NCBI GenBank assembly: GCA_904420535.1
Contig: CAJFVQ010000010.1
Coordinates: forward strand, 1-43,070
Direction of reading: 5' to 3'
Origin: Candidatus Cryptoclostridium obscurum
GTDB lineage: Bacteria; Bacillota; Dehalobacteriia; UBA7702
Length of the DNA: 43,070 nt
Shown here: in pieces, positions 5,974 to 41,838 of the stretch
How positions within the stretch are numbered: the first letter of the stretch is position 1
Layout: each line of letters begins with the position of its first letter
Position numbers and translations under genes: made by a program
Notes under the pieces: model-generated
Seen by the model: only the letters and a program-made list of their open reading frames with translations
Told to the model about the DNA's origin: nothing
Databases searched by the model: none

Positions 5974-7554
5974 TTAGATCTGCTGTTTCGATTCTTGCTG
6001 TTCCTGTACGGATTGAGATGCCGCATTGTTTCCTTGTGATTGAATAGTTTCTCCATATGTAGATTTCAATTCTTTAAAGAGATTGAAGATCATTAGTACA
6101 GTAATAATGATGAAGGGGAAAGCAAAAACAACGGCAATATTCTTTAAGGTATCCAGACCGCCAATGGAGAAGAAAAGAATTGCGTTTAAGGCAATGAAAA
6201 TTCCCCAGAAAGCGCGCAATCCGAGGGAAGGAACAAAGTCGCCGCCGGCGCTTAACGTCCCAGCAACATAAGTGGAAGAGTTCACCGAAGTAATGATCAA
6301 AGTGAGGATTAACACCATGGACAAAGGAATCGTAACCACGGAGAAGGGAAGTTCCTTCAAGAATATGAACAAAGAATTATTCGTATCCGCCGCCGCGGCC
6401 ACAGCCACATCAGAACCTTCAAAGAGAGTCAGGTGAATCGCTTCACCGCCGAAGAAAGTGAACCAGATGCAGCACAAAATCCCAGGGACAAAAAGGCAGG
6501 CCAAAACGAATTCACGAATCGTTCTTCCTTTGGAAATATTTGCAAGGAAGCCGCCGACAAAGGGAGCAAACGCAACCCACCAAGCCCAATAAAAAATGGT
6601 CCAACTTTCTACCCAGTCATAACCGGTATGGTTTGATACGGTCTCAAAGCTATCGGAGAAAAACAATAGCCACGGGAAGTTAAATACCATATCCCCCATA
6701 CTTTGGAAAAATGTATTAATCAAATAAACGGTAGAACCAAAAATCAACGTGAAAACCAACAAGAGCAAAACAATATACATATTGGTATCACTGATGACCT
6801 TGATCCCTTTGGCAACTCCACTCATAGCGGAAATAGTCGATAATACACCGATGACCACTACGACAAGAGCAACAGTGAAAAAAGTATTTGGCACGCCGTA
6901 CTGCATATTCAGACCACTGACAAACTGTGTTGCAGCAAACCCTACGGACATGGATACACCGCAAACTACGGCAATTAAGGAAAAGGCGTCAATAATTTTA
7001 CCCGGCGCCTTACTGATGCGATCTCCCAACGTTGGCTGGAATGTCGAAGACACAAGGCTGGGAAGCCCTTTGCAGTGAGCAAAATATGCCATACAAAGAC
7101 CGACAATCCCGTAACTAGCCCAAGGTAAGAAGCTCCAATGGAAAAAGGTTGTACGCATGGCGTCGGCAGCTGCTTCCGCACTACCGCTTTCAGCAAAGGG
7201 TGCAGATATAAAGTGGGACACCGGTTCATAAACCCCATAAAAAACGAGGCCTACGCCAAGTCCCGCACCGAAGAGCAATCCCATCCAACTGAAGAAGGAA
7301 TACTCCGGTTTCGAGTCGGGAGGTCCCAATTTAATTTTACCATATTTGCTTACACCGATGGCAAGAAAGGATATAATAATAAATGCGTAGGCTAAAATAT
7401 AAACCCAACCAACCGTCGACAATGTAAATCCTAAAATTGCATTCACACTTGTTTCCGCCACTTTTGGAGTAAGAAGAATGAATAGGAATATCAATACGTA
7501 CACCACTACTGATACTCCAAAAATGGTCTTGTCCACTTTTCCTAATAGTTTCAT
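5974..7554 (-). CDS. BCCT-family betaine/carnitine/choline transporter
   Basis: This 526-residue membrane protein of about 12 helices takes up quaternary ammonium compounds such as glycine betaine, carnitine or choline, either by sodium or proton symport or by substrate/product antiport. The glycine-rich helix FGAGLGVGLVFYGVYEP and the family signature WTIFYWAWWVAFAPF, with its aromatic cage tryptophans, then ISKGRTIREF, are both present. The C-terminal tail is short and Gln/Ser-rich, with no long osmosensing domain visible; this favours nutrient uptake over osmotic response (inference). A convincing sigma-54 promoter lies 283 bp upstream, with two palindromes behind it, and the likely activator gene is next upstream. 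In an organism with four MttB-like enzymes, the imported betaine is a plausible methyl donor. The start ATG has GAGAGGGG about 8 bp before it. Confidence 0.95.
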   Translation of the reverse strand: MKLLGKVDKTIFGVSVVVYVLIFLFILLTPKVAETSVNAILGFTLSTVGWVYILAYAFIIISFLAIGVSKYGKIKLGPPDSKPEYSFFSWMGLLFGAGLGVGLVFYGVYEPVSHFISAPFAESGSAEAAADAMRTTFFHWSFLPWASYGIVGLCMAYFAHCKGLPSLVSSTFQPTLGDRISKAPGKIIDAFSLIAVVCGVSMSVGFAATQFVSGLNMQYGVPNTFFTVALVVVVIGVLSTISAMSGVAKGIKVISDTNMYIVLLLLVFTLIFGSTVYLINTFFQSMGDMVFNFPWLLFFSDSFETVSNHTGYDWVESWTIFYWAWWVAFAPFVGGFLANISKGRTIREFVLACLFVPGILCCIWFTFFGGEAIHLTLFEGSDVAVAAAADTNNSLFIFLKELPFSVVTIPLSMVLILTLIITSVNSSTYVAGTLSAGGDFVPSLGLRAFWGIFIALNAILFFSIGGLDTLKNIAVVFAFPFIIITVLMIFNLFKELKSTYGETIQSQGNNAASQSVQEQQESKQQI

Positions 7555-25401: not shown

Positions 25402-25436
25402 TAAAAAAACGAAACACCTGATTTCAGGTGTTTCGT
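25402..25436 (-). terminator. terminator of the pyrrolysine mttB operon
   Basis: ACGAAACACCTGA and TCAGGTGTTTCGT form a 13-bp stem with a 2-nt loop; on the minus strand a run of seven T follows. It lies about 60 bp past the mttB stop and ends the four-gene operon. Confidence 0.9.
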
Positions 25437-25495: not shown

Positions 25496-26965
25496 TTATG
25501 CCCATGCATCCTCTGCATCTCGAATGATCTGGTCTAAAATATTCATGGTTCCAGAATCCAACAGATCCGGTTGGTGAGTTTCTAAAATATATAGCATCTT
25601 TTCATGCGCTCTGGTTGCTAAATCTTTTGCTCCTTCCGCTTTCCATTGCCCATAAGGACGACGGTCAAACAATGAAGTAAAGGATTGTTCTTCACGCATA
25701 TGCTTTACTGTATGCTCTTCTTGTAGGAAATGTCCTCCACATCCTACATGGCGAATGACGTCTACAGCCATGGTTTCATCATTGACGGGAATGCCGCCAA
25801 TAATTTTTCTTACCATTTTAGCAATTTCATGATCAACAACAATCTGGCTAAAATCCAACGTCATTCCAAGGTCAATCATACCAAGCCCATAAATCATATT
25901 GGCACCTGCCAATGCTGCCATTAACATGGACATTGTTTTTTCTAACCCTGCTTGTTCATCACCGCATTTACTATCCGTCTATGAACCTGCCACATAGCTG
26001 GGAATTTGGTAGAATTGGGCCATTTTAGCAACAGCTGCGCTTAACATTCCCAATTCGGGACAACCAATGGTTGCAGTCGCTGATCTCAGATCCATAATTG
26101 TTGTGGAACTCCCATATAGATTCGGAGCTCCGCGTTTCACTGCTTGGCCCAGTACGATACCGGCCAAAACCTCGGCATTGTGAGTAACTAACGTACCGGC
26201 CAGGGTGACAGGAGTAGTTCCCCCTGCCATTGCCATGGAAAGGACTGTGCAAGGAGCACCATTTTCCGCATACACAATGATAGGTTCTGTTGTTTCCGGT
26301 GAGATGGTCAAAGGACTGGTGGGACAGACAACCGTAGAAGCGATCGGACGACGTTGAAAAGCCTCTTTCCCTCCAGCAACAACAAAGGCCATTTCTAAAA
26401 GCTTTTCCGCTTCCCTGCGGCTATGTGCACTTTGCGTGCAGTGTTTTGTCGAATGACCGGTCATTGCCTTATAGCTCGCCAAATTACTGATTTCGGAAGG
26501 AAGATCGCGACATTCCACCGCCACATCCAAAAGATCATATTCTTCCAGAGCATCCACCAAAATGGCAGTACGTACTTGATCCTCATAAACAGAAGGACGA
26601 TACTCCCCGGTAAAAGGATCGATTACATTGACTCCTTTACTGAAATTACAAAAATTAACACGTTTTCCTTCCAAATGAATATCATTTTGAGGATCCCGAC
26701 CGGCTAAAAGCACAGAAGACGGTGTAGAAATAATGGCATCTTCCACCACATGGGCAGGGATATAAACAATGTTATTTTTATCATCGATCGTGCAGCCTAC
26801 AGCGGCATAGTATTCTTTGGCTTCTGAACAGAGGGTTTTAATACCGGTATGCCAAAGAACCTCCAAGGTCGCTTCGTGAATCATTTGCAAAGAGTCTTCT
26901 GCAAGTCCTAAAAGGCCATAACCTAGAATTCCATGACTGCCACTGGGAATCGATCTTCGGCTCAT
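25496..26965 (-). CDS. mttB: trimethylamine methyltransferase MttB with in-frame UAG (pyrrolysine)
   Basis: MttB moves a methyl group from trimethylamine to the cobalt of a partner corrinoid protein. It is a TIM-barrel enzyme with pyrrolysine in the active site. The frame has 489 sense codons counting one TAG at codon 329 (25979-25981); the archaeal enzyme has about 495 residues with pyrrolysine at 334. Both sides of the TAG align with the three paralogues here: PSYVAGS before it, TDSKCGDEQAG after it, then GLGMIDLG and GGHFLQEEHTVKHMRE. There is no ribosome site for a separate downstream gene (first ATG 25933). ATG 26965 is chosen because GGGAGAT lies seven bases upstream, overlapping the stop of the preceding paralogue. 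Without suppression the product would stop at 328 residues, lacking the C-terminal third. It is the last gene of the operon. Exact amine specificity is inferred from the family. Confidence 0.9.
25979..25981 (-). other. in-frame UAG, predicted pyrrolysine codon 329 of mttB
   Basis: The codon lies between GGTTCA and ACGGATAGTAAA, inside an otherwise uninterrupted frame. In the paralogues the aligned column, seven residues after an (I/L)P pair and just before (T/A)D(S/P), is Leu323, Ala316 and Cys324. The position matches the pyrrolysine of known MttB proteins. Confidence 0.87.
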
Positions 26966-26970
26966 AAACG

Positions 26971-28458
26971 TCATCTCCCTTTGGGTCCACAAGGCAACGA
27001 TGTAAATCCCATGTCCACCATGATTTCATACATTGCCTGATCCAAATTTTCCTCCGTAGATTTGTCCAAAAGAGGTACTTCATGATTGGCTAAAATCTCT
27101 TCAACTTTTTCATGAGCACGTTGAAAAATATCTTTTTTTCCTTCGGCTTCCCAAGTATTTCGATTCTTTTTGTCGATGATATTGGGAGGAATATAAAGTT
27201 CTTCCTTGAAATGTCGAAAAGTATGTTCTGTAGACATATAGTCGCCACCCGGCCCCAATGCATGAATTAACGCCACTGCCAACGTTTCATCACTCACATC
27301 AAAACCTTTTTGGACCCGCTTAATCATGGCAACAATTTCATGGTCTATCACCAGCTTTTCCAAACTAAACGTATTCACAAAATCAATCATGCCAGGCCCT
27401 GCAATAATATTCACACCGCCAATCGCTGCAAGAAGTCCACTCAAAGCCGTTTCAAGTCCTGCTTGTGCATCAACAACTTTAGGATCAGCCAATCCGGCAT
27501 AGGTATGACAAGGAATTCCATAATATCGAGACATCTGAGCATAAGATGTACTAATCAAATTTGATTCACAAGCATTCAAAGATGTCGTACTATAACGCAT
27601 ATCAAAAGTCATGGGCGCGCCCCCAAAAATCATGGGATTGCCGGGATGTACCGCCTGAGCTAATACAATGCCGCTTAAAGTTTCAGCAATATGAATTACA
27701 AGGGAACCGCTAATTGTAGCAGGGGAAACAGCACCTGGCATAGGTACGGAAATGGTTTCAATGGGCAACCCCAACTTTGCGCAATCAATGATATTATGGC
27801 AACTGATATTGGTCCATTTTAAAGAAGGAGAAGAGCATACATCAAAAAATGCCAATGGTTTTTCTCTCAAGGCTTTTTGGCTGCCTCGGATTTGAACCAA
27901 AAGTTTTGCAATGTTACCAATCCCTTCCACATCAAAAGCACCTGCTGCCATAGGTTTTTTTGTATTTTTTAACATTAAATACACACGGTAACAGTCGGTG
28001 ATTTCCTTGGGGACATCATCCAAAGATACAGCTGTAGTTTGAATTGGGTAGTTTTCCAAAGCGTCCGTTACTTTATAAATATTGACAATATCTTTGCTGA
28101 TTGCAGGGTGGGCGGTGATCCCATCCCCTTCTAAAAAGTTTAACCCCGCAGAACCGGGATCAAAATAGCAGCAATTGCCGCCAATGGTGATAGGGTTTTC
28201 CCCGTCCCTGTCATAAAGTTGAAAAGATTCCGGAACAGCATCCAAGGCATCTTCTACGATTTTTTTGGGAAAGCGTACAACCATTGATCCCCGGTCAACA
28301 GAGCATCCGGCTTCTGCTAAAATATTCAAAGCTTCCTCGCTGTCAAAAAACACACCGGTTTCTTCCAATACTTGTAATGCCGCATCATGGACCTTGAGTA
28401 TATCATCTTCGTTCAAAAACCGAAATTTAGGCTGTGTATCAAATGAAAATTTTGCCAT
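26971..28458 (-). CDS. MttB-superfamily methyltransferase without pyrrolysine (paralogue 2)
   Basis: A 495-residue member of the trimethylamine methyltransferase superfamily (COG5598 type). Characterised non-pyrrolysine members demethylate quaternary amines such as glycine betaine, proline betaine, carnitine or gamma-butyrobetaine onto a corrinoid protein. Landmarks are LEETGVFFDSEEALNILAEAG, PGAVSPATISGSLVIH, YAGLADPKVVDAQAG and ALGPGGDYMSTEHTFRHFKE. Leu323 occupies the pyrrolysine column, so a different methyl-activation mode is expected. GAGGT lies eight bases before the ATG. Its stop is 5 bp before the mttB(Pyl) start. The substrate cannot be assigned. Confidence 0.93.
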   Translation of the reverse strand: MAKFSFDTQPKFRFLNEDDILKVHDAALQVLEETGVFFDSEEALNILAEAGCSVDRGSMVVRFPKKIVEDALDAVPESFQLYDRDGENPITIGGNCCYFDPGSAGLNFLEGDGITAHPAISKDIVNIYKVTDALENYPIQTTAVSLDDVPKEITDCYRVYLMLKNTKKPMAAGAFDVEGIGNIAKLLVQIRGSQKALREKPLAFFDVCSSPSLKWTNISCHNIIDCAKLGLPIETISVPMPGAVSPATISGSLVIHIAETLSGIVLAQAVHPGNPMIFGGAPMTFDMRYSTTSLNACESNLISTSYAQMSRYYGIPCHTYAGLADPKVVDAQAGLETALSGLLAAIGGVNIIAGPGMIDFVNTFSLEKLVIDHEIVAMIKRVQKGFDVSDETLAVALIHALGPGGDYMSTEHTFRHFKEELYIPPNIIDKKNRNTWEAEGKKDIFQRAHEKVEEILANHEVPLLDKSTEENLDQAMYEIMVDMGFTSLPCGPKGR

Positions 28459-28555: not shown

Positions 28556-29830
28556 TTAGTCGTCCCCTGCCTTGGTTAATTTCTGTTTCTTTTTGATTCT
28601 GGCAATCAAAATAAAGCTAAAGACAAAACCTATCAATCCTACAATTAACATATAAGTAAACATGATTTTGTATCCTGTAATTCCCGGGTAAGAGTCAAGC
28701 CAGTGGCCAACCAAGGTATATACGAAAGCTTCCGGAATAAATCCGATAAAGGAAGCCAAACCAATGGCTGCTCCGGTATACATTAATGGAATTGCCAGCT
28801 CATCAATGGCAGCAAAATACACACCGCGAGTTAAAAAGACAGAGAAGGCTAAAACAACCATGGCAATAGTAGCAAGCCATAAGAAAGACTCCCTCGCAGG
28901 AATAATTAAATAAGCCAAAACAGAAATGGAAGCAACCAATAAACCAATACGCAGTACTTTTACAGTAGAACCAATTTTATCTGCCCAGATGCCAGCAATA
29001 GGGCCACCAAAAATGGCAATAAAATAAGTTCGAATTAAAGCAATTAAGGCAGCAAGGGAGGCGCCAGCACCAAACATTTCAGTAAAATATGGTGTAATAT
29101 AGCTTTGGGTGCAATAAAGTGTGTAGCAAGCAAAGATAATCACTGCCAAAAGCCAAAGACCGGGAAGTTTTAATACATAAAGCAACTCCTCTTTTAAATT
29201 ACCTTTTTCTGTTGAGGCATCGCTCTCATCTTCAACTTTTCTTTCTTTGAAAAAGAAAAGAATCAGAAAACCAGCCAACAACGTGATACCGGAATATGCG
29301 AGAATTGCCCCGCGAATCCCGGCGATTTCTCCACCGAGATAGTTGAAAAGCGTAAGAATGGCCATTCCCCAAATCATGGGAAGTAACCCGCGTCCACCTT
29401 CTAAGATTCCGAAAAGTTTGCCTTGGATTTCACTGCCCCCAGACATTCTGGTAGCTTTCAGCATGGCAGCCCAAAAAATAAGAGAAGTTGTGATCCCCCA
29501 CAAAATATGGATTAATAAGGAGATAATATAGGAAGGAAATGTTGAAAAATAGAATCCCAATGCCGCTGTGGCAAACAAGGCAAAAACGATTAGTTTTTTA
29601 CATGAGAACTTATCTGCCAGCCAACCTCCGGGAAAATAGCAAATCATGGCAGTAACGCCGTAGGCTGTCATTAAGGTACCATACTGAGTATGATTCAACT
29701 CCAATGCGGCTTGAAGCGCATCATAATAGTAATAACGAAGATACGGCAATTCATAAATCGCACCACCTGCTAAAATCAAAAGTAATAAAACTAGAATTCT
29801 TTTCGAATTAAACAGTGAATCGGACTTCAT
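28556..29830 (-). CDS. MFS transporter within the mttB operon
   Basis: A major facilitator of 424 residues with about 12 membrane helices. The loop 2-3 motif reads GGWLADKFSCKK and the repeat-2 equivalent GPIAGIWADKIGS. A charged central loop (KERKVEDESDASTEKGN) divides the halves, as in nitrate/nitrite-porter or oxalate:formate-like carriers. It lies between two MttB-family genes on one strand, 55 bp after mttB3 and 97 bp before mttB2, so it probably imports their methylated amine or exports the demethylated product. ATG 29830 is chosen because AAAGGA lies eight bases upstream; an ATG at 29854 has no site. Direction and substrate are unknown. Confidence 0.92.
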   Translation of the reverse strand: MKSDSLFNSKRILVLLLLILAGGAIYELPYLRYYYYDALQAALELNHTQYGTLMTAYGVTAMICYFPGGWLADKFSCKKLIVFALFATAALGFYFSTFPSYIISLLIHILWGITTSLIFWAAMLKATRMSGGSEIQGKLFGILEGGRGLLPMIWGMAILTLFNYLGGEIAGIRGAILAYSGITLLAGFLILFFFKERKVEDESDASTEKGNLKEELLYVLKLPGLWLLAVIIFACYTLYCTQSYITPYFTEMFGAGASLAALIALIRTYFIAIFGGPIAGIWADKIGSTVKVLRIGLLVASISVLAYLIIPARESFLWLATIAMVVLAFSVFLTRGVYFAAIDELAIPLMYTGAAIGLASFIGFIPEAFVYTLVGHWLDSYPGITGYKIMFTYMLIVGLIGFVFSFILIARIKKKQKLTKAGDD

Positions 29831-29885
29831 ATGCCTCATCCTTTCAAAATTCATTTGATTTTATTATGCTGAAACAATGATGCTT

Positions 29886-31313
29886 TTAAAATCTAGATTC
29901 TGCCTTTCTGACAATGTCGTCAAGTTTTGCAATTACATCATCAGGCAATGATTCCGGTTTGTGATTTTCCAAAATGTTAGCGATTTTTTCATTGATCCGG
30001 TCAGCCATATTTTTCTCGCCTGCTGCTTTCCAAGCATTATAGTCCTGACGAATCCCGCAATCCGGAACATACATTTCTTTTTGAAAATTACGGAAGGTGT
30101 GTTCCGCAGCTAAGAAATTTCCGTTTGGACCGACTTCATCAATGACATCGGCGGCAAATCCATTGGCATCCGTTTGGAACCCTTGCTTCAACCGTTTTGC
30201 ATAGCCGACCACTTCTTCACAAAATACCATAAGATGAATGGATCCGGTCATACCAACATCCAACATTCCCAAATCATGAACTAAATTTGCACCGGTTGCC
30301 ACGGAAGAAATAATCTCTGCGGTCACCTCCATGGCAGCTTGAGCGTCTAAAGATTTGGAATCAGTCGCACCGGCCAAACCGAAGCTCGGGATACCACAGG
30401 AACGGAGAATTTGTGTCCCGGCAGCATCAATTAAAACCATCTCAGGACTACCATAAGCCGCTTGGAATGTTTTTAAATCCAACACTCCGCCGTTAGAGCT
30501 ACAGATGATGGGAGCTCCTTCCCGTACCAATTGAGAAATCACAATGCCAACAAAAACATCCGCCAAACCAATGGTCAATGCTCCTGCCAAAGTAACAGGT
30601 GCGGTTCCTCCGAAGGTCATACCGGGAGAATAGACACAAGGAAGGTTCTTTTCTGCCATATACATTACTTTTTCCAAGGCTTCTTTTGAATGGGAAAGAG
30701 GTGTAGTAGGCTCGGAATACATCATCAACAAAGGTTTTTCACGAAGTGCATCTTCTCCACCGGCAACGGCTTCCGCCATCGCTACAATATCCTTCAAATT
30801 GTCCAGATCAAAGGTCCATGTAAGAATCGGTTTCGTACTATGACGCAGCATTGCATCTACTTCATGGATATCCGCAAGTTGCGGCGTTTGATCCCCAATC
30901 ATACAAAGCGACATTAAAAAATCGATATTCTTTAATGCATCTGCAACAATTGTAGTAGAAATAACATCTTGCTTTGTCGCAATACGACGCTCCAAAGTAA
31001 TTGGATCGTTATAATGCGGACAAGTTACACCAGGACCAAAATACGTATTTCTCTCAGTCAATTCCATTGCAAGAATGCCATGACGATCATAGATATTAAT
31101 TTTCTCGGGTGCTGTTTTCAAGGCCGCTTCCGTAATGTTCCGAGGAATGCGCACTAAATTTTCATCAGATACTTCCGCTCCTGCTTTTTTAAGCAACTCT
31201 AATGCCTCGGGAGAATAAATGCGGCAACCAGTGCGTTCCATCAAACGAAATGTTGCTTCTTTTATTTCTACCACTTCTGTATCAGATAACACATCAAATT
31301 GATATTGAGCCAT
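29886..31313 (-). CDS. MttB-superfamily methyltransferase without pyrrolysine (paralogue 3)
   Basis: The first gene of the operon encodes a 475-residue MttB-like protein, close in length to the glycine-betaine methyltransferase MtgB. Landmarks are LMERTGCRIYSPEALELLKKAG, MTFGGTAPVTLAGALTIG, PSFGLAGATDSKSLDAQAA and EVGPNGNFLAAEHTFRNFQKE. Ala316 stands in the pyrrolysine column. ATG 31313 has AGGAGG nine bases upstream; a longer reading to 31388 overlaps the promoter region. Transcription starts near 31409 from a promoter with a MerR-type 19-bp spacer. It would methylate a corrinoid protein encoded elsewhere. A betaine-type substrate is likely but the exact one cannot be read from sequence. Confidence 0.94.
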   Translation of the reverse strand: MAQYQFDVLSDTEVVEIKEATFRLMERTGCRIYSPEALELLKKAGAEVSDENLVRIPRNITEAALKTAPEKINIYDRHGILAMELTERNTYFGPGVTCPHYNDPITLERRIATKQDVISTTIVADALKNIDFLMSLCMIGDQTPQLADIHEVDAMLRHSTKPILTWTFDLDNLKDIVAMAEAVAGGEDALREKPLLMMYSEPTTPLSHSKEALEKVMYMAEKNLPCVYSPGMTFGGTAPVTLAGALTIGLADVFVGIVISQLVREGAPIICSSNGGVLDLKTFQAAYGSPEMVLIDAAGTQILRSCGIPSFGLAGATDSKSLDAQAAMEVTAEIISSVATGANLVHDLGMLDVGMTGSIHLMVFCEEVVGYAKRLKQGFQTDANGFAADVIDEVGPNGNFLAAEHTFRNFQKEMYVPDCGIRQDYNAWKAAGEKNMADRINEKIANILENHKPESLPDDVIAKLDDIVRKAESRF

Positions 31314-31396
31314 AACATAACCTCCTAATAATTCCAAGAAATCCAACGTCTCAGATTCCCGTGAATGCCAATAAAAATTTTGTTGCAACAGGTTTA

Positions 31397-31425
31397 TTGA
31401 CTTCTTCTAATTTGGAGTATATACT
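31397..31425 (+). promoter_or_regulatory. sigma-A promoter of the merR-like gene
   Basis: TTGACT-N17-TATACT places the transcript start near 31432, upstream of the TTG start at 31466. This excludes an in-frame ATG at 31361, which lies before the promoter. Its -10 overlaps the -10 of the opposing mttB promoter in the palindrome AGTATATACT (31416-31425). Confidence 0.8.
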
Positions 31426-31446
31426 ATCCCACAAAGGGAGAGTCAA
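31416..31446 (-). promoter_or_regulatory. MerR-type promoter of the mttB operon with operator dyad
   Basis: On the minus strand TTGACT and TATACT are separated by 19 bp, the overlong spacer typical of promoters that MerR proteins activate by twisting DNA. The spacer region holds a dyad, half-sites ACTCTCCC and GGGATAGT, 5 bp apart (31423-31443, 7 of 8 symmetric). TTGACTCTCCC recalls BmrR-type operators. The dyad also covers the merR start site, which predicts autoregulation. Confidence 0.82.
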
Positions 31447-31465
31447 TATCAAAGAAGGTGTTTTT

Positions 31466-32275
31466 TTGAAAAAATTATTTTCCATTGGTACCGTGGCAAA
31501 ATTAAAGGGCGTTTCGGTAAAAATGTTGCGACATTACGATGAGATTGGACTACTCAAGCCTAGTTATATCGATCCTGATACCGGATATCGCTATTACAGC
31601 TCCAGTCAACTATTATTTATTGAATTCATTACTTTCTTTCGCCGCGGCGGAGCCTCCTTAAAAGAAATTGCCGATGCCTGTCAAGACGATAATGCCCTCG
31701 CCATTGCTGACTTTGCAGGCAAACAAATTGAAAAAGTGCAACAGGAAATAGAGATGCTCAAGGAAGCGATTGTCAGCTATGAGGGACTGCGTGACCATAT
31801 TTATACCGATACGGCAAATGCCAAAAATCAGGGAGTTTACTGGCGAAGGATCGGACCGAGAGACGTAATCAAACACAACATCTCTAATCGCATTATTACC
31901 GAAGAAGATATCTATAAATACTTTTGGGACATTTATAAGGAAATTCGCATTCACGACTTGCGTACGCTATATGCCACCGGAAGTATCGTTATGCTCCCGC
32001 AACACAGAAATACAGCAGAACTTTACTATATGGACATCTTTTGCGATGTCGCATTACGGAAAACGTCCCTATTTACCAGGATAGAAACTCTACCACAGGG
32101 GGAGTATTTATGTGTAAATTATAAAAAGAAAGACAAAAAAATCAAGTTAGATTTGCTGAAAGATGCAATAGAAAAAATTGGCAAATGGCCAACACTTTGT
32201 GTAGAAGTGGACATGTTTACAACAGTAACAACTTGGAATGATCCTTTTAATGAAATGCAAGTACTTTTCTCATAA
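31466..32275 (+). CDS. MerR-family regulator with BmrR/GyrI-like effector domain
   Basis: This 269-residue DNA-binding protein faces the mttB operon. The winged helix-turn-helix covers residues 4-73 (SIGTVAKLKGVSVKMLRHYD, then DPDTGYRYYSSSQL). A long dimer helix follows at about 80-115. The C-terminal 150 residues look like the GyrI/BmrR effector fold (ELYYMDIFCDV, LPQGEYLCVNY), which binds cationic organic ligands in known members. The start is a TTG at 31466 with GAAGG six bases before it; this agrees with the promoter at 31397-31425. By position, spacer and dyad it should control the mttB operon, perhaps by sensing a quaternary or tertiary amine (inference). Confidence 0.88.
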   Translation: MKKLFSIGTVAKLKGVSVKMLRHYDEIGLLKPSYIDPDTGYRYYSSSQLLFIEFITFFRRGGASLKEIADACQDDNALAIADFAGKQIEKVQQEIEMLKEAIVSYEGLRDHIYTDTANAKNQGVYWRRIGPRDVIKHNISNRIITEEDIYKYFWDIYKEIRIHDLRTLYATGSIVMLPQHRNTAELYYMDIFCDVALRKTSLFTRIETLPQGEYLCVNYKKKDKKIKLDLLKDAIEKIGKWPTLCVEVDMFTTVTTWNDPFNEMQVLFS

Positions 32276-32983: not shown

Positions 32984-34033
32984 TCACTCAGCAATATCCC
33001 CAATTCTCATCAAAAATTCATACCAAAGATTAGGAAACGTATTCTCTTTACCATCGGGGAAAAGCTGTCGCTTTAATTGATTCATACCATAGACTTCAGA
33101 AAATATTCCATGACGCATATCGTCCATAATCGCCGCGACCATACTCGCTTTCACAGCCAATTCCGGCATGGCCTCGGCTTGTGCCCAAATCATTTCAGAC
33201 CGTTCCAATTTGTCGTTTTTTTCCATAAAACGGAAAAAAGATTCTTTACAGACACCAAAGCGCTTCAAACGATTACTCATTCTCGTCATATCAGTATCAT
33301 GAGATTCCATGTGAAGAAGCAAAGCTTTTTTAGTCGCAGAACGAACGACTCCACCAATCAACTGTCCCAACAAAGAGTGCTTCCCAGCGTCGGTTCTTTT
33401 CAAAGGCGATGCAGGGTCAGAAACCACAGCGAGTCCATCGGTACCAGAACCTGTGGCAATTTCCGGTGAAACGACACTCGGCAAACGAAGCTCATGAATG
33501 GCTGCTGCTTTTGCCTCGGTAGCGGTTACGGCGGCGCGGCAAAGGATTCCGTCGGGCAGGTCGGCGCCAATGATCACCATGGTATTGATGGTGCCACCAA
33601 GCATCAAAAAACTGTCGTTTTCTTCGCGGTATGAAGCTCGGTCGCCGGGATACCCTCCGTTACGTTCAATGCCACCAGTAACAACAGCCGCCACAGAAAG
33701 GCCGTGGCTCTCCTGTTGTTCCACCACGACATCATCCATGGTGACGGCGGTTGTCATCCCAACACTGAATCGAGGATCCAACCCCAATTCAACGGCAATA
33801 CGTTCTAGTTCTTTTTTGTATGTTTTCTCCCGCAATTCACAACGACCGTTTTCATCTTTCAAATCAAAGTTAAATATCGCCTCTAAATCACGGCGAATGC
33901 CACCACCAGCTACAGAAGTATGAAGCACCTTGCGACTATTTTGAAACCGTAAAACTAAACCGCGACCATGGCGAACCAATTGATCCTTATTAAAAAGAAT
34001 CATGGGATCTTTTTGGAAGATTCTTTGCTGCAT
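32984..34033 (-). CDS. cbiZ: adenosylcobinamide amidohydrolase CbiZ
   Basis: CbiZ removes the aminopropanol side chain from adenosylcobinamide or pseudocobamides to give cobyric acid, so that imported corrinoids can be rebuilt with another lower ligand. The first 230 residues match the family: AGGGIRRDLEAIFNF, SVGMTTAVTMDDVVV, LGGTINTMVIIGADLPDG, TATEAKAAAIHELRLPSV and ATGSGTDGLAVV. About 115 further residues, from roughly 235, form a helical tail I cannot assign. Substrate use is inferred from the family. It fits well with the B12 importer and the corrinoid-dependent methyltransferases in this window. The gene is divergent from an RpiR regulator across 181 bp. Its ribosome site (AAAGGAACG) is weak. 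Confidence 0.85.
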   Translation of the reverse strand: MQQRIFQKDPMILFNKDQLVRHGRGLVLRFQNSRKVLHTSVAGGGIRRDLEAIFNFDLKDENGRCELREKTYKKELERIAVELGLDPRFSVGMTTAVTMDDVVVEQQESHGLSVAAVVTGGIERNGGYPGDRASYREENDSFLMLGGTINTMVIIGADLPDGILCRAAVTATEAKAAAIHELRLPSVVSPEIATGSGTDGLAVVSDPASPLKRTDAGKHSLLGQLIGGVVRSATKKALLLHMESHDTDMTRMSNRLKRFGVCKESFFRFMEKNDKLERSEMIWAQAEAMPELAVKASMVAAIMDDMRHGIFSEVYGMNQLKRQLFPDGKENTFPNLWYEFLMRIGDIAE

Positions 34034-40321: not shown

Positions 40322-41773
40322 TTACTGATAACGCTTTTCAGCCTCAGCCATGATTTCGTCAAGTTTTGCTAAAGTTTCAGCAGATAAGGGTTTTTGGGGG
40401 CCTTTTGCCAGAATTTCACGCACGATATCTTTATTACGTTGATTCCAATCTTTTTTGCCGCTATCAGCCCATTTTTTATAACTTGTTCGAATCATATTTT
40501 GCGGCATCCAACTTTCTCTGAAATGGCGCATCGTATGCTCTTCTGCCAAAAAGTTGCCATTGGGACCTACATTATGAATCACGTCTTCCGCCAAGGTTTC
40601 ATCGGTAACTTCGACGCCACCGGCGATTTTTTTACAGTAATCAATGGCTTCATTAGCGAATACCAAAGTTTCCAACGAAGAAGACATTGCCGTTTCCAGA
40701 TAGCCGCAGAAATTCATAATATTTGCGCCAGCTAAAATACCAGTATACAATTGGATCCCAATATCGAATGCGGCCTGTTGATCAAAAATGGGTGAGTCTG
40801 TACAGCCCAAATGGACTTCAAACGGAAGATTGAGGTAGCGGAATACATCGCAAGCTGCAGCGGCTCCCAAAGAATATTCAGGAGAAGACATGGCAAAAGA
40901 CATTGTTTTCATGTCCAGCATATCGACGAAACAAGTCCCCATAAAAGGACAGCCTTCATTCTTTAATTGTGAAAGCAGAAGTCCAACCAGAGTTTCACAA
41001 AGCCCCTGTACCAGAGATCCCGCTAAAGTTACCGGGGAAGTACCTCCCATCATAGTTGCAGCGATATAAGGTGTGGGTAACCCCAATTCAAACATGTACA
41101 GCAATTTATCCAAAGTATCTTCCCCATGGGAAAGCGGAACTGACGCTGCACCGCCGGCAATAATAAATGGTTTCTCTAAAAGTACATCCATACCGCCTAC
41201 AGCAGCAGCACAAAGCTCAACCTGAGTTTTTAAATTTTCTTTATTAAAATTCCAAATCAATATTGGTTTCGTGGTAGTCTCCAACAACATACGAAGTTCA
41301 TAGACATCAGCTAGCTGAGGAGTGCAATCAGAAATACAGGTAAGCCCGCAGGCAACGTCTACATTGGGCAAAGCATCAATGATCAAGCCGGCTTCGGCAG
41401 CATCACGTTTGACGGTAAGGCGTTTCTCGCCTGTTTCCAAATCAATTCGATACTGATTTTCTAATCCCGCCATAAAGTAGGTATTTCCATTGCGGGCCCC
41501 CAAGCGGAGCGCCGGATTTCCCTCTCTGTCATAAACCATAATTTGCTTGGGAGCAGTAGATAAAGCTTTTTGAATTAAATGAGAAGGAATTTTTACCCGA
41601 ATGCCATCAATGGAACATCCTGCCTTCCGCAGCAACTCCAGAGCATCTTTGTGATGGACATTGCATCCGGTACGCGCCAAAACACGCAGAGCCGACTCAA
41701 AAATCTGTTCGCATTGGCCGTCTGTCAGAACATTCATCTGGATACTTTGATGGGTAATCGAATTTGCTTTCAT
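40322..41773 (-). CDS. MttB-superfamily methyltransferase without pyrrolysine (paralogue 4)
   Basis: A 483-residue MttB-like protein and first gene of a sigma-54-controlled operon. Landmarks are LARTGCNVHHKDALELLRKAG, MMGGTSPVTLAGSLVQG, VHLGCTDSPIFDQQAA and NVGPNGNFLAEEHTMRHFRE. Cys324 occupies the pyrrolysine column; a thiol there is unusual enough to note, but its role is unknown. The likely reaction is methyl transfer from a quaternary amine to a corrinoid protein not encoded here. Two ATGs three codons apart are possible (41782 and 41773); I take 41773 because AAGGAG is nine bases away. A sigma-54 promoter lies 66 bp upstream. Confidence 0.93.
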   Translation of the reverse strand: MKANSITHQSIQMNVLTDGQCEQIFESALRVLARTGCNVHHKDALELLRKAGCSIDGIRVKIPSHLIQKALSTAPKQIMVYDREGNPALRLGARNGNTYFMAGLENQYRIDLETGEKRLTVKRDAAEAGLIIDALPNVDVACGLTCISDCTPQLADVYELRMLLETTTKPILIWNFNKENLKTQVELCAAAVGGMDVLLEKPFIIAGGAASVPLSHGEDTLDKLLYMFELGLPTPYIAATMMGGTSPVTLAGSLVQGLCETLVGLLLSQLKNEGCPFMGTCFVDMLDMKTMSFAMSSPEYSLGAAAACDVFRYLNLPFEVHLGCTDSPIFDQQAAFDIGIQLYTGILAGANIMNFCGYLETAMSSSLETLVFANEAIDYCKKIAGGVEVTDETLAEDVIHNVGPNGNFLAEEHTMRHFRESWMPQNMIRTSYKKWADSGKKDWNQRNKDIVREILAKGPQKPLSAETLAKLDEIMAEAEKRYQ

Positions 41774-41838
41774 GGCATACATCTCCTTATCTCTTATTGC
41801 GTCAGTTTTGGTTTGTAGCTACATTCACAAACTTATAA

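Follow-up and report, generated by a model that had tools for sequence, protein, structure and literature searches.

A UAG in the frame of an mttB-family gene of Candidatus Cryptoclostridium obscurum is nearly certain to be decoded as pyrrolysine. The gene is at 25496..26965, minus strand, of the window (the whole stretch of DNA analysed, 43,070 nts, to which all coordinates refer), and the UAG is its codon 329. Grounds for this are the continuous frame, the position of the TAG in the pyrrolysine (Pyl) column, a complete pyl gene set, the confinement of TAG to one column of the family and, in related genes, purifying selection that is equal before and after the codon. With UAG counted as pyrrolysine, the product is a Pyl-type MttB of 489 amino acids and ~53 kDa (PF06253, TIGR02369), belonging to a subfamily, here termed SK, with Ser-Lys at two active-site positions. 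Ribosomes would insert pyrrolysine at UAG329 by means of tRNA-Pyl(CUA), which PylSn and PylSc would charge with pyrrolysine made by PylBCD, and a single full-length protein would result. Judging from homology, a tertiary amine would form an adduct with the pyrroline ring, and a methyl group would pass to a B12 (corrinoid) protein, whose gene is elsewhere in the genome, and from there to tetrahydrofolate; no corrinoid protein gene adjoins the Pyl-mttB within the window. Pyrrolysine decoding combined with corrinoid-dependent methyl transfer from a tertiary amine, whichever amine that is, is very probable.

Translation of the minus strand from 26965 to 25496 gives 489 codons with a single internal stop, the TAG at 25979..25981, and no frame shift. 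PF06253 covers the whole of the read-through protein (331 bits, profile positions 34-492), and the curated Pyl-type MttB model TIGR02369 (trimeth_pyl) gives it 653 bits against a cut-off of 525. The paralogues at 26971-28458, 29886-31388 and 40322-41782 in the window align with both sides of the TAG. A preliminary description of this DNA had proposed a single mttB frame running across one TAG at the pyrrolysine position, and both parts of the proposal are borne out: codon 329 and residue 334 of M. barkeri MttB, the crystallographic pyrrolysine (X, standing for Pyl, in 7xcl; K in 7xcm), share exactly one alignment column. The two sides of the TAG are about equally identical to other Pyl-MttBs.

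The gene starts 5 nts past the stop of the upstream mttB, inside the end of which is its purine-rich ribosome site. An intrinsic terminator with 12 pairs and a T run (25409..25436, minus strand) is 3′ of the full-length frame, which fits one transcript spanning both halves. A separate downstream gene initiating at the ATG at 25933 was considered and rejected, as that ATG has no well-spaced ribosome site and 15 conserved residues would go missing. The earlier judgement that two separate genes are unlikely still holds. A match to the mttB-type Rfam model PYLIS_3 (RF02510) begins at the TAG and extends over 25882..25981, minus strand (60.5 bits, gathering score 38, E 2e-11); it may partly mirror coding conservation, besides RNA structure, and is not proof of an RNA element.

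The genome, of 2.10 Mb and 99.1% complete, has the machinery for this decoding. A search of it for pylT, pylSc/pylSn and pylBCD, called for by the preliminary description, found all of them in one cluster, on a contig separate from that of the window, and the reading in that description thereby survives its own refuting condition, a genome lacking pylT or pylS. There (contig C90; L030) pylSc, pylD, tRNA-Pyl (CUA), pylB, pylC, a methyl-THF:corrinoid methyltransferase-like gene and pylSn form one run; the same contig also bears one TAG-mttB. Scores in bits, each with its curated cut-off, are 344.8 against 178 for PylSc, 135 against 51 for PylSn, 479 against 348 for PylB, 374 against 248 for PylC and 192 against 150 for PylD. 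ARAGORN found the tRNA-Pyl with CUA anticodon inside the cluster. The only PylSc relatives named by the contig search are from a Peptococcaceae MAG, a Clostridia MAG and Acetobacterium fimetarium. That a different suppressor tRNA instead puts a standard amino acid at UAG, or that the TAG is an assembly error, is vanishingly improbable: no point in support of either was found, the CUA tRNA-Pyl gene is within the pyl cluster, and independent genes and genomes share this codon at this column. The statement in the preliminary description that bacterial users of pyrrolysine are few is dated, as close relatives of the window protein are present in 25 of 399 sampled genomes of the same phylum, nearly all of them with the TAG.

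Use of TAG within the genome bears on whether codon 329 could be a terminator. There are 42 MttB matches in the genome, pieces counted. A mid-gene stop is found in nine intact mttB genes, that of the window included, and in one decayed copy; it is always TAG, always at one column, and it precedes a DSK motif. TAA and TGA 'inside stops' of MttB matches are at gene ends only. The mtmB and mtbB of the genome have one TAG each. As an ordinary terminal stop, TAG ends 10 of 257 other long frames (~4%), some with a second stop shortly after, as counted on a ~370 kb sample enriched in mttB loci and not on all genes. UAG329 must therefore compete with termination. Onward reading of the TAG-ended genes outside mttB in this ~370 kb sample gave no convincing continued protein. 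Estimates of dN/dS, where they could be made, are ~0.01-0.25 both before and after the TAG in close pairs of related TAG-mttB genes, the window gene itself being too diverged for an estimate. In a tree, the TAG-mttB genes of the family and M. barkeri MttB are together on one side of a branch with support of 100.

A true stop at TAG 329, leaving either a pseudogene or a protein of 328 residues, is very improbable. TAG does end some genes here, and one TAG-mttB copy (C2:24093-25470) is decayed, but against this stand the identical TAG column in nine intact paralogues and five orthologues, selection that in related genes is equal on the far side of the TAG, the completeness of the pyl set and the location of the terminator beyond the full frame. 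[The decayed copy (L034; contig C2 of genome G000) has frame breaks, keeps TAG at the Pyl column and adjoins an intact Pyl-mttB. The top-scoring Pyl-mttB of the genome (L031; G000:C41:31180-32586) combines an internal TAG, for pyrrolysine, with a terminal TAG that has a hairpin 3′ of it; UAG would then have two meanings within a single mRNA.]

In a larger tree set, the Pyl-MttB group also holds eight members without TAG (L131, L132, L133, L134, L135, L103, L136 and L137), with Leu, Val, Ile, Gln, Trp or His at the Pyl column. Some of these are in the probable genomes of 'Ca. Formimonas warabiya' DCMF and Dehalobacterium formicoaceticum, of the same class as the window organism, both of which keep pyl genes, and in DCMF one (with Leu) directly adjoins a TAG copy. 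At the position of Tyr364 of M. barkeri MttB, Phe is present in TAG-bearing MttBs L069 (G002:C19:45655-46764), L072 (G003:C52:734-2098) and L132 (DCMF). Substitution of Phe for Tyr364 lowered the activity of M. barkeri MttB ~30-fold, and the L069/L072 pair is less constrained after the TAG.

According to the paper on the M. barkeri MttB structure, 66 Pyl-MttBs share Gly110 and Tyr364 without exception, and the Gly110 carbonyl and the Gly110-Thr111 cis peptide position a water on pyrrolysine and touch the corrinoid (PMC9842639). The window protein keeps the equivalent of the catalytic tyrosine, Tyr359 (codon at 25889..25891, minus strand, by alignment). In the place of Gly110-Thr111 in that structure (PMC9842639) it has, also by alignment, Ser109-Lys110, with codons at 26636..26641, minus strand. 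Five orthologues, 61-66% identical to it and all with TAG, likewise have Ser in place of Gly110 and Ser-Lys at 110-111; they are in genomes G004, G006 (DCMF, by inference), G088, G126 and G152, and the orthologue search was extended through the class of G126, for which there were only four genomes. The group has support of 97 in the tree. By the criteria applied, only six columns separate it from the 58 other Pyl-MttBs compared, and active-site positions 110-111 are two of them. As Gly110 is Ser here, catalysis may differ, and Lys110, close to the pyrrolysine, could serve to hold a carboxylate group.

Comparison with characterised enzymes places the window protein further. It shares with M. 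barkeri MttB (PDB 7xcl, 7xcm; PMC9842639) the fold family, the Pyl column and the Tyr364 equivalent, and the full-length alignment scores 373 bits; it differs in having Ser-Lys rather than Gly110-Thr111, in being bacterial and in the lack of an adjacent corrinoid gene. MtgB, the glycine betaine methyltransferase (PDB 2qne, 9yce), and other non-Pyl MttBs are of the same superfamily (249 bits) but, unlike the window protein, have no pyrrolysine and act on quaternary amines. Bacterial Pyl-MttBs, even many per genome, are already known: DCMF was reported to have 82 mttB genes and 23 Pyl methyltransferases, and seven of its Pyl-MttB proteins were detected by proteomics (PMC6778437, PMC9768040). DCMF is of the same class as the window organism, and its orthologue, with TAG and Ser-Lys, is 63% identical. 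However, the DCMF SK gene is in a lysine operon with Pyl-mtbB and a corrinoid protein gene, whereas that of the window follows two non-Pyl mttB genes and a transporter.

The G152 orthologue is part of a complete lysine-fermentation operon. Its first part has kdd, kamB, a sigma-54 regulator, kamD, kamE, kal, kce, an X-type mttB, an NhaC-like transporter and kamA; its second has CoA transferase A and B, Pyl-mtbB, a Pyl-type corrinoid protein, SK-mttB and a class III aminotransferase. For kdd, kamB, kamD, kamE, kal, kce and kamA the scores pass curated equivalog cut-offs and for the CoA transferase they pass subfamily cut-offs, while the regulator and the aminotransferase are family-level matches only. 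The DCMF locus has kamDE, kce, kamA, X-mttB, CoA transferase, mtbB, corrinoid, SK-mttB and aminotransferase, and a partial locus in G004 has kamA (partial), X-mttB, mtbB, corrinoid and SK-mttB. In G126 and G088 the SK gene is apart from kamA. The X-type mttB is associated with kamA, encoding lysine 2,3-aminomutase, more widely: kamA is within 2.5 kb on the same strand at 8 of 13 X loci, all outside the family of the window (one positive, in G418, being a kamA end at a contig edge), and at none of 20 controls, which are loci of other Pyl-mttB genes taken in part from the genomes of the X loci (Fisher 9e-5). Without the three loci that gave rise to the idea the figures are 5 of 10 against 0 of 20 (p ~0.002). 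One of the 20 controls has kamA within 9.5 kb, on the other strand. A second X-like gene in DCMF (L196, 49% identical), with no kamA nearby, was left out of the count. [Sets at L180, L182, L184 and L186, from other families and with no lysine genes nearby, repeatedly combine an operon-type MtbB (72-76%) with a Gly110-bearing Pyl-MttB close to the SK group, often with a further MttB (35%).]

In the window, an X-type mttB, with Leu at the Pyl column, is next to the Pyl enzyme gene (26971..28458, minus strand, ending 5 nts before its start) and is likely its co-translated partner. Outside its own family, the best matches of its product are the X-type MttBs of the lysine operons, at 56% identity. 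Further 5′ in the same run on the minus strand are an MFS transporter gene (28556..29854), which also adjoins the X-type mttB in G003 (L173), and, at the head, a third mttB, again non-Pyl (29886..31388); the first three genes of the run are the same in G003. A divergent gene for a MerR-family regulator (31361..32275, plus strand) possibly controls the run. Elsewhere in the window are genes for a BCCT-type betaine/carnitine/choline transporter (5974-7554) and for cobinamide salvage, CbiZ (32984-34033), both fitting a methylated-amine, corrinoid-based life.

Pyl-MttB enzymes act on tertiary amines, Pyl-MtbB enzymes on secondary amines, and the characterised non-Pyl MttBs on quaternary amines. 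The presence in a lysine-degrading operon of one non-Pyl MttB, one Pyl-MttB and one Pyl-MtbB with one corrinoid protein thus suggests three successive demethylations, from trimethyllysine to lysine. It is tentatively proposed, at slightly under even chances, that SK Pyl-MttBs work on N,N-dimethylated lysine, the tertiary-amine step of a three-enzyme route into lysine fermentation; the proposal covers no fixed position of the methyl groups on lysine. For the window, gene neighbourhoods suggest, with nearly balanced odds, that X-MttB (quaternary amine) and then Pyl-MttB (tertiary amine) demethylate the same trimethylated compound, for which a methylated lysine is a likelier candidate than trimethylamine. 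In such methyl-lysine users X-MttB would take the first methyl group, the SK enzyme the next and a special MtbB the last to give lysine, with the window keeping the first two steps, an account to which we give almost half of the probability. Favouring it are the SK-mttB genes within lysine operons of G152, DCMF and, partly, G004, and the nearness of kamA at half of the X loci not used to form the idea and at none of the controls. Against it, kamA was not found in the window genome, two genomes (G126 and G088) have the SK gene apart from kamA, no other X or SK protein has diverged as far within its group as those of the window (56% and 61-66%), and the substrate proposal draws on other genomes. 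The only mtbB found in the window genome is of another clade, 79-86% identical to mtbB beside ordinary Pyl-mttB and 58% to the operon type. Given the lack of lysine 2,3-aminomutase, only part of the pathway, or a different one, would operate here; the window may encode a truncated form that serves just to gather methyl groups, or its enzymes may have shifted to another substrate.

Alternatively, pyrrolysine is inserted into an ordinary trimethylamine methyltransferase in which Ser-Lys is neutral, Gly110 acting through its backbone only. This is a serious possibility, if one that on balance we doubt. The score above the TIGR02369 equivalog cut-off (653 against 525) and retention of the Tyr364 equivalent and the Pyl column accord with it, as does the fact that methylated amines are the only compounds to which Pyl-MttBs have been linked to date (PMC9842639, PMC9768040). 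Yet Ser-Lys is invariant in the six genomes, which span several families, and makes up two of the six subfamily-specific columns, eight intact Pyl-MttBs are present in the window genome besides this one, and orthologues are in lysine-fermentation operons. Whether Pyl-MttBs have substrates beyond trimethylamine has been raised as an open question (PMC9768040).

The SK subfamily and its link to lysine operons appear undescribed in searchable papers. Literature searches, with subscription papers and preprints outside their scope, found nothing on trimethyllysine with MttB or corrinoid or on methyllysine with acetogens, and no paper titled on the MttB superfamily with lysine. Standard annotation cuts TAG-bearing Pyl genes in two and overlooks them. 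The SK subfamily in its lysine-operon context offers the question of substrates other than trimethylamine a concrete, testable candidate, methylated lysine. If the proposal is true, Pyl-MttBs would not be limited to trimethylamine, part of their large expansion in these bacteria would be accounted for, and an anaerobic use of methyl-lysine would be revealed.
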